Source: Methanoculleus methanifontis (GTDB lineage: Archaea; Halobacteriota; Methanomicrobia; Methanomicrobiales; Methanoculleaceae). From it: 64,000 nucleotides of DNA. Every line of letters starts with the position of its first letter. Within the stretch, counting starts at the first letter, position 1. The stretch lies in assembly GCF_030464365.1 (NCBI RefSeq), contig NZ_VCYI01000012.1:1-64000 (forward strand), in the 5' to 3' direction. The position numbers and the translations under genes are program-made. The notes below the pieces were generated by a model that was not told the origin of the DNA, searched no databases, and saw only the letters and a list, made by a program, of their open reading frames with translations. Below are positions 3,860 through 9,425 of the stretch, one piece after another.

Positions 3860-4552
3860 CTACTCCGGGGGCACCCCGGCCACGCCGTTTACCGGCAGAG
3901 AGAAGACGATGGCTCCGGCATCGGTATGCGGCCCTGCCCGGGTGGCGATCGCTTCCATGATGCCGCACTTTGACTCGCTCCCGGTGAGAATCAGGATCAG
4001 ATCCTTCTCGGGCAGGATGGGCGCCCCAAAGAACTCCTCCATGTTCTCGAAATCGATACCGCGTGCCGGGATGATGGTCCCTCCCGTAGCGTTCGCGCTC
4101 TTCGCCGCCTCCATCACAACGTCCGAGAAACCCTGGTTTGCAACCGCTATGACCAGATCGTGACGCATACTCAGTTCCATGGATCGTCTGCCCTCCCCTC
4201 CCCGCGACGAGCCCCGCAGGTAATCCACTGTTCTTGCACCGCAGACGCTCCCCATGGGCACTGTAAAGGCGATGCCGCGACCGGGCCTTTCCAGTCTCAG
4301 TTCGTCGCGTATCTTCGCAAGCAGACTGTTTGACGATTCCGGGGGCATCGTGCTGATGAGGATCGTCTTCTCGGTCTCGCCCAACCCCAGATAACTCATA
4401 ATTCTTGAATCCGCCGTGCCCCTTCCCCGGGTCAGGAGATTGAATGTCCCACTCTCACCCTTAAAGAGGTTCATTATCGTTTCATCCAGCTCACGGTCGA
4501 AGATGGTGATCATCACCACCAACGGCCCGCCCGCTGAGGTCTCATCCAGCAT
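3860..4552 (-). CDS. Tandem PII-like protein partnered with DUF1538 transporter
   Basis: The 230-residue soluble protein shows two similar halves of about 110 residues. Each has a beta-alpha-beta pattern like PII/CutA ferredoxin-like folds (VVMITIFDRELDETIMNLFK in the first, HDLVIAVANQGFSDVVMEAA in the second). It starts 15 bases after the stop of the DUF1538 membrane gene, so the two form an operon. PII proteins bind nucleotides or small metabolites and gate partner transporters, and pairing with DUF1538 suggests the same here. The canonical T-loop is not obvious. The ligand is unknown. Confidence 0.7.
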   Translation of the reverse strand: MLDETSAGGPLVVMITIFDRELDETIMNLFKGESGTFNLLTRGRGTADSRIMSYLGLGETEKTILISTMPPESSNSLLAKIRDELRLERPGRGIAFTVPMGSVCGARTVDYLRGSSRGGEGRRSMELSMRHDLVIAVANQGFSDVVMEAAKSANATGGTIIPARGIDFENMEEFFGAPILPEKDLILILTGSESKCGIMEAIATRAGPHTDAGAIVFSLPVNGVAGVPPE

Positions 4553-4567
4553 TCCCGTCCCCGTTTC

Positions 4568-6082
4568 TCACAGGTCGATGATTTCTACATCCTCTATATC
4601 AAAGGTTGCCCTCTTCGCCGTGGCTCTGGCCCGCCGCACCTTCATCCTGTAGAACAACCCCATCACCTGCACGGTGATCAGCGGCACCATGGCCACCACG
4701 GCAATGATCCCGAAGGCTTCGGTCAACACGTTGCCGCCCAGAGCTTCGGAAACCCCCATGGTAAACGGAAGCAGGAATGCGACCACCATGGTGCCTGCGG
4801 CAATGCCACCGGAATCAAACGCGATTGCAATGAAGATCTGGGGCGCAAATAATGTCAGTGCCAGGGCAACAGCATAGCCCGGCAACAGGAACAGCCAGAT
4901 CTCAATGCCAGTCAGGACGCGAACCATGACGAGCATCAGCGCGACTCCTACGCTTACAGAGAGGCCCAGCATCATGATCCGGCGTGAGATCGCGCCGTGA
5001 GTGATCTCATCGATCTGGTTGACGAGGATCTGCACAGGGGGTTCCGCAGCAACGATGAAAAAGCCGATGACGGCACCGAGCGGGACCAGGATCCAGTTGT
5101 ACGGCAGAGACGAGAGGGCATGGCCCAGGTATGTTCCGGCAGGTACGAAACCTATGTTCACTCCGGTCAGAAAGACCGTCAGCCCGAAGAGGATGTAGAC
5201 GATCCCCACGCCGATCCGGATCAACTGGGTTCTGGGGAGTTTCAGGCGCACCACCTGGTATATCCCAAAGATTACCACGATGGGTAGCAGAATCAGCGAG
5301 ACTTCCCCGAAGAACTGGAACAGCCCTCCGGCATACAGGCTCGCGAGTTCTGCCGTGCCGCTCACCGTGGCGGCGGATTCAGAGGCGTGGCCGGTACCGG
5401 CGGGGTCAAAGAACAAACCCATTATCAGGACCGCGAGAATCGGCCCAATTGAACAGATGGCGGTGAGCCCGAAGCTGTCTTCAGACCTCTTCTCCCCGCG
5501 GACCGCTGAGATGCCGGCCCCCATTGCAAGGATAAAGGGCACGGTGATGGCGCCTACAGTAACCCCGCTCGAATCAAAGGCTACGGCCAGATAGTCCAGC
5601 CCGGTGAGCGTGGCCAGGATAAGGACCAGGGAGTACAGGACGACGAACATATACGATAGCCGGACCTGGAAGAGGATCCGGAGCACGGCGAGGACCAGAA
5701 AGATACCCACACCGAAGGCCACCGTGGTCACAAAAATGGGATCGGGCACGGCGGCGATCTGCCGGCTCAGTACCTGCAGGTCAGGCTCTGCGACCGTTAA
5801 GACCGCCCCCAGCATGAAACAGGTGAGGATGATCAGCCGGACGTTGCGAGATTCGGTCAGTTTTGAACCTATCAACTCCCCCATCGGCATCACGGCCACA
5901 TCAGCACCAAGCGTGAAGGCACTCATGCCGACAATGAGCATAACGGCGCCTGTTGCAAAGAGCATCAGCGTCCCCGGGGGCATGGGAGCCAGGGTTAGAT
6001 GGAGCAGTAAGACGATGCCGAAGATCGGCAGAACCGATCGCAGCGACTCCTTGAGTTTTTCAAGCAGAACGTGTGACATCAT
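4568..6082 (-). CDS. DUF1538 integral membrane protein, predicted transporter
   Basis: The product of about 504 residues is very hydrophobic, with at least ten membrane segments. It has two homologous halves, each with the DUF1538 pattern (GADVAVMPMGELIGSKLTES in the first; IAFDSGGIAAGTMVVAFLLP in the second; the first half repeats DSSGVTVGAITVPFILAMGAG). An open frame extends to 6166, but the ATG at 6082 (or 6079) is preferred: GGAG lies just before it and the extra residues are hydrophilic and unlike the family. The downstream PII-like gene is probably its cytoplasmic regulator. Substrate unknown. Confidence 0.78.
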   Translation of the reverse strand: MMSHVLLEKLKESLRSVLPIFGIVLLLHLTLAPMPPGTLMLFATGAVMLIVGMSAFTLGADVAVMPMGELIGSKLTESRNVRLIILTCFMLGAVLTVAEPDLQVLSRQIAAVPDPIFVTTVAFGVGIFLVLAVLRILFQVRLSYMFVVLYSLVLILATLTGLDYLAVAFDSSGVTVGAITVPFILAMGAGISAVRGEKRSEDSFGLTAICSIGPILAVLIMGLFFDPAGTGHASESAATVSGTAELASLYAGGLFQFFGEVSLILLPIVVIFGIYQVVRLKLPRTQLIRIGVGIVYILFGLTVFLTGVNIGFVPAGTYLGHALSSLPYNWILVPLGAVIGFFIVAAEPPVQILVNQIDEITHGAISRRIMMLGLSVSVGVALMLVMVRVLTGIEIWLFLLPGYAVALALTLFAPQIFIAIAFDSGGIAAGTMVVAFLLPFTMGVSEALGGNVLTEAFGIIAVVAMVPLITVQVMGLFYRMKVRRARATAKRATFDIEDVEIIDL

Positions 6083-6359
6083 CTCCACTCCGTCGAATCG
6101 TTGCGGCTCGGTACACCGGGCCCGACCGAAACGCATCTCCTCTCCGGCAAATCTGGCATATAACATTGGGCAGCGTGGCCTGAGGTCGGGTGCCGACCTG
6201 TTCTGGCTTCTGCCCCGGCTCAGAGGCCTGACGGGACGCCCGGCCGTTCTCGCGGGATGTCGCGGGTGAGGAAATGGAGCACGGCATAGCGAGTTCTATC
6301 GGCACGGCTATGGGGGATAATGGAGGAATTGAAGGCCGGGAAGTGATCTCCCCTTCCCG

Positions 6360-7419: not shown

Positions 7420-7459
7420 ATGCAGCCCGGGTGTATCCCCCTCCCTATTTGAACATGGC

Positions 7460-7575
7460 GGTGCGCAGTATTGGTGCGCCCCACGGCAGGCCTTCCGCCC
7501 TGACGCACCACAATAGGGGCAGCTGATCAGTCTTCGGTGCGTCAAGAATCAAAAAGGTGATATGTTGCACCACAA
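7460..7575. promoter_or_regulatory. Cluster of GGTGCG/CGCACC motifs between SDR and RHH-acyl-CoA synthetase genes
   Basis: Copies of one motif fill the divergent intergenic region: ggtgcgc at 7460 and 7473 (direct, 13 bases apart); tgacgcacc at 7501-7509 and its exact inverse ggtgcgtca at 7536-7544; gcaccacaa at 7505-7513 repeated at 7567-7575. Ribbon-helix-helix proteins bind short inverted or direct repeats of this size. Since the downstream product carries an RHH domain, these are good candidates for its own operators, possibly controlling both genes. Binding is inferred. Confidence 0.5.
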
Positions 7576-7586
7576 ACCTATACTGC

Positions 7587-9425
7587 ATGGTGCGATACTC
7601 GATCACGATGGATGACGACCTCGTGAAAGCGATCGACAGGATACGTGAATACCAGGGCATGTCCCGGTCGGAATGGCTCAACGACCTCTGCACGAAGTAC
7701 CTCAACGGTGCGTCCGCGAAAGGCGTCCAGACCGCGGTTCCGGCGGGGGTACAGCCCGCAAACGTCCGGGAGCCGAACATGACCGACTACGAGGCCGCCT
7801 GTGCCAACTTCAGGATCGATGTCCCTGAATATTTTAACTTCGGCTACGACGTCATCGACCGGTGGGCCGAGACCGACCGGAACAAACTGGCGATGATCTG
7901 GGTTGACCAGGAAGGAAACGAGCGGAAGTACACTTTCCGTGATCTTCGGTATCTCTCCAACGGTGCCGCGAACATCCTCCTCAAGTACGGCATCAAGAAA
8001 GGCGACCGGGTCATGCTGATGCTCCCGCGGATCCCGGAATGGTGGATCTTTGTTGTTGCGCTCATCAAACTTGGTGCGGTCTTCTGCCCCTGCCCGACGA
8101 TGCTGACCCCGAAAGACATCAAATACCGCGTGCAGGCCGGCAAGTTCCGGATGATCATCACGAACGCCGAGAACGCCGAGAAGGTCGACGAGGTCGCCGA
8201 CGCCTGCCCGCTGCTCGACACCCTCTTCCTCGCGGACGGGGAGCGGGAGGGCTGGGCGAGCTACCCGCACGAGCTCGAGTACCCCGCACCGGTATCGCAC
8301 CACACGGTCAGCATGCCGGTCGCGAAGAAGACGAGATCGACCGACCCGATGCTGATCTACTTCACCTCGGGCACCACCGGCGAGGCCAAGATGGTGCTGC
8401 ACAACCAGAGTTACCCGCTCGGGCACATCATCACCGCCTCGCTCTGGCAGGACGTCACGGAGAACGACCTGCACCTGACGTTTTCGGACACCGGGTGGGC
8501 GAAGTGCGCCTGGGGCAAGATATTCGGCCAGTGGATCGCCGGATCCTGTATTTTCGTCTACGATATCCGGGGGAAGTTCGGCGCGACCGAACTCCTGCCG
8601 CTGCTGGAGAGGTATGAGGTGACCACGTTCTGCGCACCGCCAACAGTCTACCGGATGCTGATCCTCGCCGACCTTGACAAGTTCGACTTCCGTGACCTGC
8701 GGCACTGCTGCAGCGCCGGGGAACCGCTCAACCCCGAAGTGATCCGCGTCTGGGAGGACGGCACCGAGCAGACCATCTACGAGGGATACGGCCAGACGGA
8801 GACCGTTTGCTGCATCGCGACGTTCCCGTGCATGCAGCATAAACCCGGGTCCATGGGGAGACCCGCTCCGGGCTGGCAGATCGAGCTCCACGACGACGAC
8901 GGCAACCCGGTCGGCCGCGGTGAGGAAGGGCGGATCGCGGTCAAACTCGACCCCCGACCGGCCGGGCTCTTCGTGGAGTACCTGGACAACCCCGAGGCGA
9001 ACCAGGAGTCGTTCCAGAACGGGTATTACTACACCGGCGACAAGGCACGTATGGACGAGGACGGCTACTTCTGGTTCATCGGAAGGAGCGACGATGTCAT
9101 CAAGTCGTCCGGCTACCGGATCGGGCCGTTCGAGGTCGAGAGTGCCCTCATGGAGCACCCGGCCGTGCAGGAATCGGCGGTCGTCGGGTCGCCTGACCTC
9201 ATCCGCGGGATGGTCGTCAAGGCGTTCATCGTCTTAAAGCCCGGATATCAGCCCTCCGAATCGCTGGTCAAGGAACTCCAGGCCCATGTCCGGAACACCA
9301 CCGCCCCGTACAAGTACCCGAGAGCGATCGAGTTCGTGGAGTCGCTCCCGAAGACGATATCCGGCAAGATCCAGAGGAATGTGCTGCGGGAGCAGGAACT
9401 GCAGAAGAGCAATAATGGGAGCTGA
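7587..9425 (+). CDS. Ribbon-helix-helix domain fused to acyl-CoA synthetase (AMP-forming)
   Basis: The product has about 612 residues. Residues 1-45 (VRYSITMDDDLVKAIDRIRE then GMSRSEWLNDLC) match a CopG/NikR-type ribbon-helix-helix DNA-binding domain. A linker of about 20 residues leads to a full adenylate-forming enzyme of the medium-chain acyl-CoA ligase type: YFTSGTTGEAKMV (about 257-269), YEGYGQTETV, YTGDKARMDEDGYFWFIGRS and the C-terminal catalytic-Lys region PKTISGKIQRNVLR. It would activate fatty or aromatic acids with ATP and CoA. The frame is uninterrupted, so the fusion is real in this sequence. An internal ATG at 7779, with gggag at 7768-7772, could yield an enzyme-only form. Confidence 0.87.
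   Translation: MVRYSITMDDDLVKAIDRIREYQGMSRSEWLNDLCTKYLNGASAKGVQTAVPAGVQPANVREPNMTDYEAACANFRIDVPEYFNFGYDVIDRWAETDRNKLAMIWVDQEGNERKYTFRDLRYLSNGAANILLKYGIKKGDRVMLMLPRIPEWWIFVVALIKLGAVFCPCPTMLTPKDIKYRVQAGKFRMIITNAENAEKVDEVADACPLLDTLFLADGEREGWASYPHELEYPAPVSHHTVSMPVAKKTRSTDPMLIYFTSGTTGEAKMVLHNQSYPLGHIITASLWQDVTENDLHLTFSDTGWAKCAWGKIFGQWIAGSCIFVYDIRGKFGATELLPLLERYEVTTFCAPPTVYRMLILADLDKFDFRDLRHCCSAGEPLNPEVIRVWEDGTEQTIYEGYGQTETVCCIATFPCMQHKPGSMGRPAPGWQIELHDDDGNPVGRGEEGRIAVKLDPRPAGLFVEYLDNPEANQESFQNGYYYTGDKARMDEDGYFWFIGRSDDVIKSSGYRIGPFEVESALMEHPAVQESAVVGSPDLIRGMVVKAFIVLKPGYQPSESLVKELQAHVRNTTAPYKYPRAIEFVESLPKTISGKIQRNVLREQELQKSNNGS

Follow-up and report, generated by a model that had tools for sequence, protein, structure and literature searches.

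Is the protein encoded at 7587–9425 of the window (the whole 64,000-nucleotide stretch that was analysed) an acyl-CoA synthetase that also controls the transcription of its own gene? Its frame joins an N-terminal ribbon-helix-helix (RHH) DNA-binding domain to an AMP-forming acyl-CoA synthetase, and short repeats lie in the 167 bp (7420–7586) that separate it from a divergent short-chain dehydrogenase (SDR) gene. Because a DNA-binding domain is built into the enzyme and a conserved row of matching sites surrounds the start of its gene, the enzyme probably represses that gene, and we put at about 0.8 the probability that this protein is an active acyl-CoA synthetase of the AMP-forming kind, its acyl substrates probably short branched or of medium length, and at the same time its own transcriptional repressor.

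Frame, start and domains of the fused gene

The frame 7557–9425 is open without interruption in the ORF listing, and with the Pfam domains given below it bears out the initial annotation, which had described one frame carrying an RHH domain and a complete AMP-forming ligase (Table 1). The gene almost certainly starts at ATG 7587 and not at GTG 7557, since Met-Val-Arg at this ATG opens all 62 RHH-fused genes that are distinct by sequence (33 Methanoculleus-type and 29 others, the set behind all counts of 62 here), the GTG lies inside the promoter core, and 1-base indels in relatives break the frame between the GTG and the ATG. Behind an SD-like GGTGAT there is also a short ORF at 7562; it was dismissed as a leader because the alignment of relatives does not conserve its ATG. 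Mean pairwise identity among the 33 Methanoculleus-type copies is 75% in the RHH domain and 90% in the synthetase versus 47% in the linker, which indicates two conserved domains on a free linker. In one draft genome the fused gene (L153/L135, G015:C122) is broken over two frames, probably by an assembly or sequencing error.

Several lines of evidence identify the N-terminal domain. Pfam RHH_1 scores 20.9 bits with the whole window protein (gathering score 20.5) and 24.7 bits with the N-terminus alone; among four other RHH fusions, L052 passes at 23.1, L035 and L046 fall below at 17.7 and 16.6, and L050 gives no match at E 0.01. The NCBIfam NikR model matches the N-terminus at 25.4 bits, far under its cut-off of 175.45, and a profile search of solved structures finds NikR 1q5v as the closest RHH protein (E 0.002). 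The AF2 model of the domain has helices at residues 10–23 and 27–40 (mean pLDDT 67) and draws no strand; absence of the RHH strand is expected when the chain is modelled alone. Foldseek with this model matched CopG, NikR, Arc and PutA, every one at E > 0.1. By analogy with NikR we take R3, S5 and T7 to be putative DNA-facing strand residues, and in 17 aligned fusions R3 and S5 are invariant and T7 is present in at least 90%. The CopG/NikR-like assignment proposed earlier is thus upheld by Pfam, NCBIfam, the structure profile and conservation, the N-terminus being both conserved among relatives and RHH-like by profile. In the same 17 fusions residue 35 in the second RHH helix (window 7689–7691) is always cysteine. 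The RHH profile has one other match in the window's genome, weak and partial, at E 0.02.

The synthetase is complete, with Pfam AMP-binding at residues 91–453 and AMP-binding_C at 516–594. Alignment shows that the Gly standing in for the acetate-selecting Trp is kept in the window protein as G402, placed by the Acs motif. Over residues 63–604 the closest solved enzyme in the structure profile search is MacsMa of Methanosarcina acetivorans (3etc), and Y510, R540, Y575 and Y577 of the window protein align with its CoA-pocket residues Tyr460, Arg490, Tyr525 and Tyr527. For MacsMa, 2-methylbutyrate is reported as the preferred substrate, and changes of Tyr460, Tyr525, Tyr527 and Arg490 are reported as very deleterious (PMC10455477). 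Because these residues and G402 are kept, the window protein is likely an active acyl-CoA synthetase that takes short branched or medium-chain acyl groups. It does not reach the equivalog cut-off of MbcS (NF047394; 504.9 versus 850 bits).

Table 1. Features of the locus (window coordinates; s1 to s6 are the GGTGC/GCACC half-sites)
Feature	Position	Strand	Remarks
Short-chain dehydrogenase (SDR) gene, 282 aa	6571..7419	-	divergent; Pfam adh_short 135 bits; possible second target
s1 GGTGC, putative half-site	7460..7464	+	near SDR promoter; in a subset of copies (uncounted)
s2 GGTGC, putative half-site	7473..7477	+	32 bp before s3
s3 (GCACC on + strand), candidate half-site	7505..7509	-	left arm of inverted repeat
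s4 GGTGC, candidate half-site	7536..7540	+	upstream of BRE/TATA; right arm of inverted repeat
Putative core promoter BRE/TATA AATCAAAAAGGTGATAT	7547..7563	+	conserved in relatives' alignment; ends 23 bp before ATG
s5 (GCACC on + strand), candidate half-site	7567..7571	-	between TATA box and start; -17 to -21
s6 GGTGC, candidate half-site	7589..7593	+	overlaps start codon and codons 2-3; codon bias
RHH-acyl-CoA synthetase fusion gene, 612 aa	7587..9425	+	start ATG 7587, chosen by conservation
RHH DNA-binding domain, residues 1-41	7587..7709	+	Pfam, NCBIfam, conservation, AF2 helices, Foldseek
Variable linker, residues 42-63	7710..7775	+	pairwise identity
AMP-forming acyl-CoA synthetase, MacsMa type	7776..9422	+	Pfam, NCBIfam, 3etc match, CoA-pocket residues

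Half-sites around the promoter and the start codon

The initial annotation had pointed to an exact 9-bp inverted repeat and further copies of its motif, and both are present: TGACGCACC at 7501–7509 faces GGTGCGTCA at 7536–7544, and more GGTGC or GCACC copies begin at 7460, 7473, 7567 and 7589. Taken alone the repeat is within chance (a 12-mer round its left arm, with up to 2 mismatches, has 6 matches in the window versus 4.65 expected); the motif stands above chance because its 5-bp core, orientation and spacing are conserved across relatives, and these are the only properties that persist there. In the window the half-sites that start at 7473, 7505, 7536, 7567 and 7589 are spaced by 32, 31, 31 and 22 bp, close to whole turns of B-DNA, and their orientations alternate. 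They share the consensus TGGTGC(A/G), whose first T is weaker in s3 and s4. The s2 site recurs in many of 32 aligned Methanoculleus-type copies with a varying gap to s3 (uncounted).

Archaeal transcription begins downstream of the TATA box at roughly the distance that separates the TATA-like element from the ATG here, so a start at or near the ATG, and hence a leaderless mRNA, is expected. With s5 between TATA and start, s6 on the start and s4 just upstream of the BRE, a bound protein should block initiation. The idea that the repeats are self-operators is strongly supported by the comparison with relatives described below, and the array is larger than was first proposed, its best-conserved pair (7567/7589) having gone unnamed there.

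The last half-site is written into the beginning of the gene, where ATGGTGC reads Met-Val-Arg, and its sequence is partly fixed by the codons of these three residues. The R3 codon is CGA in 51 of the 62 genes, although over the remainder of the same genes only ~2% of Arg codons are CGA. Among Methanoculleus-type copies it is CGA in 33 of 33, versus 2.1% of Arg codons elsewhere in the gene; over 17 other conserved Arg positions taken together CGA amounts to 1.8%, and it exceeds 6.5% at none of them. In the other families it is CGA in 18 of 29, versus 2.3% elsewhere, one other Arg position there having 13.8% CGA. This rare codon at R3 recurs across clades. Three other Arg positions in Methanoculleus also use one codon (CGG) in at least 95% of copies. 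Less weight falls on the V2 codon, which is GTG in 59 of the 62 genes: another conserved Val position has GTG in all 33 Methanoculleus-type copies as well. No p-value is attached to the codon bias because related genes are not independent.

Operator and fusion among relatives

Alignment of 32 Methanoculleus-type upstream regions displays GCACC, GGTGC, aAtCAAAAaggTGATAt, GCACCAca and ATGGTGCGATA as conserved elements, and most of these are found at the same places in the other families. In 61 of the 62 genes the s5 GCACC begins 17–21 bp ahead of the ATG (the exception, L082, reads GCATCACC), and exact s4 is missing in 12 of 61. Within 120 bp upstream, the s4–s5 pair (GGTGC-N24..29-GCACC) is present in 49 of the 62 RHH-fused genes but in none of 87 paralogues that are unfused or HTH_17-fused, a set that omits paralogues of less than 60% identity or with short matches; GCACC alone occurs near the start in 11 of 77 unfused paralogues. 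In the tree set, 59 of 63 RHH-fused genes have the s5–s6 pair (GCACC-N12..20-GGTGC), as against none of 96 unfused and none of 10 HTH_17-fused genes, the four misses being L082 (changed GCACC), L175, L166 and L164 (GTT at codon 2), and dinucleotide-shuffled regions gave this pattern in a mean of 0.275 and a maximum of 3 of 63. When GGTTC was also allowed, every one of the 32 fused genes in a 76-row tree set had the pair and none of the 44 others did. Spacings in relatives are mostly 21–22 bp for s5–s6 (range 19–23), mostly 31–32 bp for s4–s5 (range 30–34) and 30–32 bp for s3–s4; s3 is present at that distance before s4 in 23 of the 28 Methanoculleus-type copies that have s4, and within 120 bp upstream in 0 of the 21 other-family copies that have it.

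The N-terminal 93 residues, searched against 150 genomes of the order, matched from residue 1 in at least 69 of them, with one fusion copy each among the matches listed; the fusion occurs there in families f1, f2 and f5 and in one f4 genome, and f3 and f6 have no fusion among the matches listed. That f4 copy (L155, G059:C5) is of the Methanoculleus type and has the divergent SDR gene beside it, at 82% and 74% identity, and it is a probable horizontal transfer, since the other f4 members have no RHH-synthetase among the matches listed. A scan of 392 genomes of the phylum gave at least 38 matches from residue 1, all within the order, and outside the order no match among those listed reached residue 1.

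In a tree of the synthetase domain only (FastTree, 172 rows), unfused relatives separate the RHH-fused genes into three clades, one of which also includes the unfused row L169, and the same three appear in an IQ-TREE quick search of 76 of the 172 rows. Joining the 32 RHH rows of these 76 by a constraint was rejected (log-likelihood 249 lower, p-AU 7e-27) in an AU test that was devised with the first tree already known and that includes some long outgroup branches. RHH domain and operator co-occur on all three clades, and in each of the three independent pairs they change together (sign test p 0.25), the small number of independent contrasts being the strongest single weakness of this study. 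Many loci are tandem pairs in which an unfused or HTH_17-fused gene is followed by an RHH-fused one; in Methanoculleus it is the other type of paralogue that carries the RHH domain, and the second copy, which in the window's genome is C6, lacks it. Support in the RHH tree is weak and RHH divergence saturates, so the data do not separate a fusion in the ancestor, followed by losses, from spread of the domain by transfer. Unfused Methanofollis-type genes gave matches that start at residue 45 and contain one TGA, but their upstream regions show no trace of an RHH domain, and these supposed remnants were discarded as chance extension.

In ten sister synthetases an HTH_17-like domain lies upstream in the same frame; nine of these genes belong to the order, and L051 comes from a bin named Methanosarcinaceae. 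The HTH_17-fused loci are L050, L052, L051, L142–L144, L160, L167, L170 and L059, plus L235–L240. Pfam HTH_17 is above its cut-off in 3 of 3 that were scanned (40–44 bits versus 27), and by eye an HTH_17-like copy is present in all six loci, chosen for long frames, of family f8, which is outside the order and probably Methanosarcinaceae. These fusions share with the RHH fusions the enzyme family, an N-terminal DNA-binding domain of similar size and the same order (together with f8), but their helix-turn-helix fold is unrelated and the GGTGC operator is absent in 10 of 10 examined. The RHH and HTH_17 fusions thus place two unrelated DNA-binding folds on the same end of one enzyme family, which suggests that these methanogens benefit from linking acyl activation directly to transcription. 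Upstream of HTH_17-fused genes, ACATAC/ATGTAT and ACATTAAAATACATT-like strings recur as possible operators (by eye, without control).

Searches for further targets in the window's genome gave GCACCA-N12..18-TGGTGC at 4 forward places (control 2), of which two are this promoter and the coding part of this gene, a third lies within a frame and the fourth spans the 3' end of a frame, and GGTGC-N25..27-GCACCA at 7 forward and 4 reverse places (control 5 and 5), three of them at this promoter. The pattern GCACCN{11,17}ATGGTKCG matches 120 of the 150 genomes, mostly as background; of three recurrent non-synthetase matches that were opened, L247 and L249 are inside frames and L248 (G003:C1:1112854-1112883) is in no clear gene. 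This last is a place of the string GCACCG..AGGTGCGA..GCGATGGTTCG, which recurs in several Methanoculleus genomes and has the look of a dispersed repeat.

Proposed regulation, alternatives and known systems

From the arrangement of domain and sites we infer binding and repression along the following lines. RHH segments of two molecules would pair and bind TGGTGC half-sites that flank the BRE/TATA and cover the transcription start of the predicted leaderless mRNA; the bound enzyme would exclude TBP/TFB or polymerase, and a rising enzyme level would close its own gene. Movement of the synthetase domain driven by substrate may loosen or tighten the grip on DNA, and through it the substrate or acyl-CoA level might be reported to the promoter, as the initial annotation supposed; release might be governed by acyl-AMP, by CoA or by the enzyme level alone. 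Coupling between the domains is not visible in the full-length AF2 model, which is poor (mean pLDDT 62). A further and tentative proposal, which we think possible but somewhat doubtful, is that promoter, RHH codons and the operator half-written in them form a portable self-repressing cassette, in which acyl-AMP or CoA binding, acting through the large rotation of the synthetase domain, would report acyl-CoA demand to the promoter; any synthetase joined to such a cassette would become self-regulating.

The sites might be bound for other ends. If the protein activated transcription or mainly controlled the divergent SDR gene, the position of s1 and s2 near the SDR promoter would be explained, and the SDR gene clearly adjoins 27 of the 33 Methanoculleus-type copies, with a 28th (L020) at 47% over a short piece. 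Yet the most conserved sites lie between the synthetase's TATA box and start codon, a position suited to repression, and none of the 29 other copies has this kind of SDR gene within 1300 bp upstream, so that we think this reading unlikely. Those 29 copies keep the operator without the SDR gene, which is outside the core system and in Methanoculleus may be a second target. Beyond it on the minus strand, at 3860–6166, a 532-aa membrane-protein-like ORF adjoins a 230-aa ORF, and by eye the two resemble a transporter and its regulator.

A slightly smaller chance is given to the RHH segment merely dimerising or scaffolding the enzyme, with the GGTGC sites serving another transcription factor: RHH domains do dimerise, and one half-site overlaps coding sequence, but the operator tracks the RHH domain on three clades and is absent from the unfused paralogues examined, two of the four forward genomic places named above belong to this gene, and R3 and S5 never vary. 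Very improbable is the view that domain and operator are functionless relics kept by descent from an ancestral fusion. In favour of this view, the fusion is of old date and is missing from several families of the order among the matches listed; against mere descent stand the higher identity of the RHH domain than of the linker, and the spacing and rare codon held across families.

Autogenous repression by the enzyme remains the favoured reading, and its nearest precedent is PutA, a metabolic enzyme whose N-terminal RHH domain is described as making it an autogenous repressor (PMC5293562). The trifunctional PutA of enteric bacteria resembles the window protein as an RHH–enzyme fusion, here with operator-like sites at its own promoter as far as the anatomy goes; it differs in being bacterial and in carrying PRODH and P5CDH, whereas the archaeal protein has AMP-binding domains and the RHH domain only (Pfam), and PutA's proline-driven move to the membrane has no known counterpart in the archaeal fusion. 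To our knowledge, few enzymes repress their own genes by means of a fused DNA-binding domain, PutA among them as the classic case, and searches of one open-access library listed no report of an RHH or other DNA-binding domain joined to an acyl-CoA synthetase or AMP-binding domain. NikR supplies the closest RHH (1q5v and NCBIfam) and a similar first strand, but the window protein lacks its nickel-binding C-terminal domain and has a synthetase there instead; MacsMa (3etc) is the closest solved enzyme and shares the CoA-pocket residues, but it matches from residue 63 only and has no RHH domain. If the favoured reading is true, this is an archaeal self-repressing enzyme at a central acyl-CoA step, with a predicted operator mapped by comparison. 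The best reading of the sequence evidence is a PutA-like autogenous repressor-enzyme, built with a different enzyme, in archaea.
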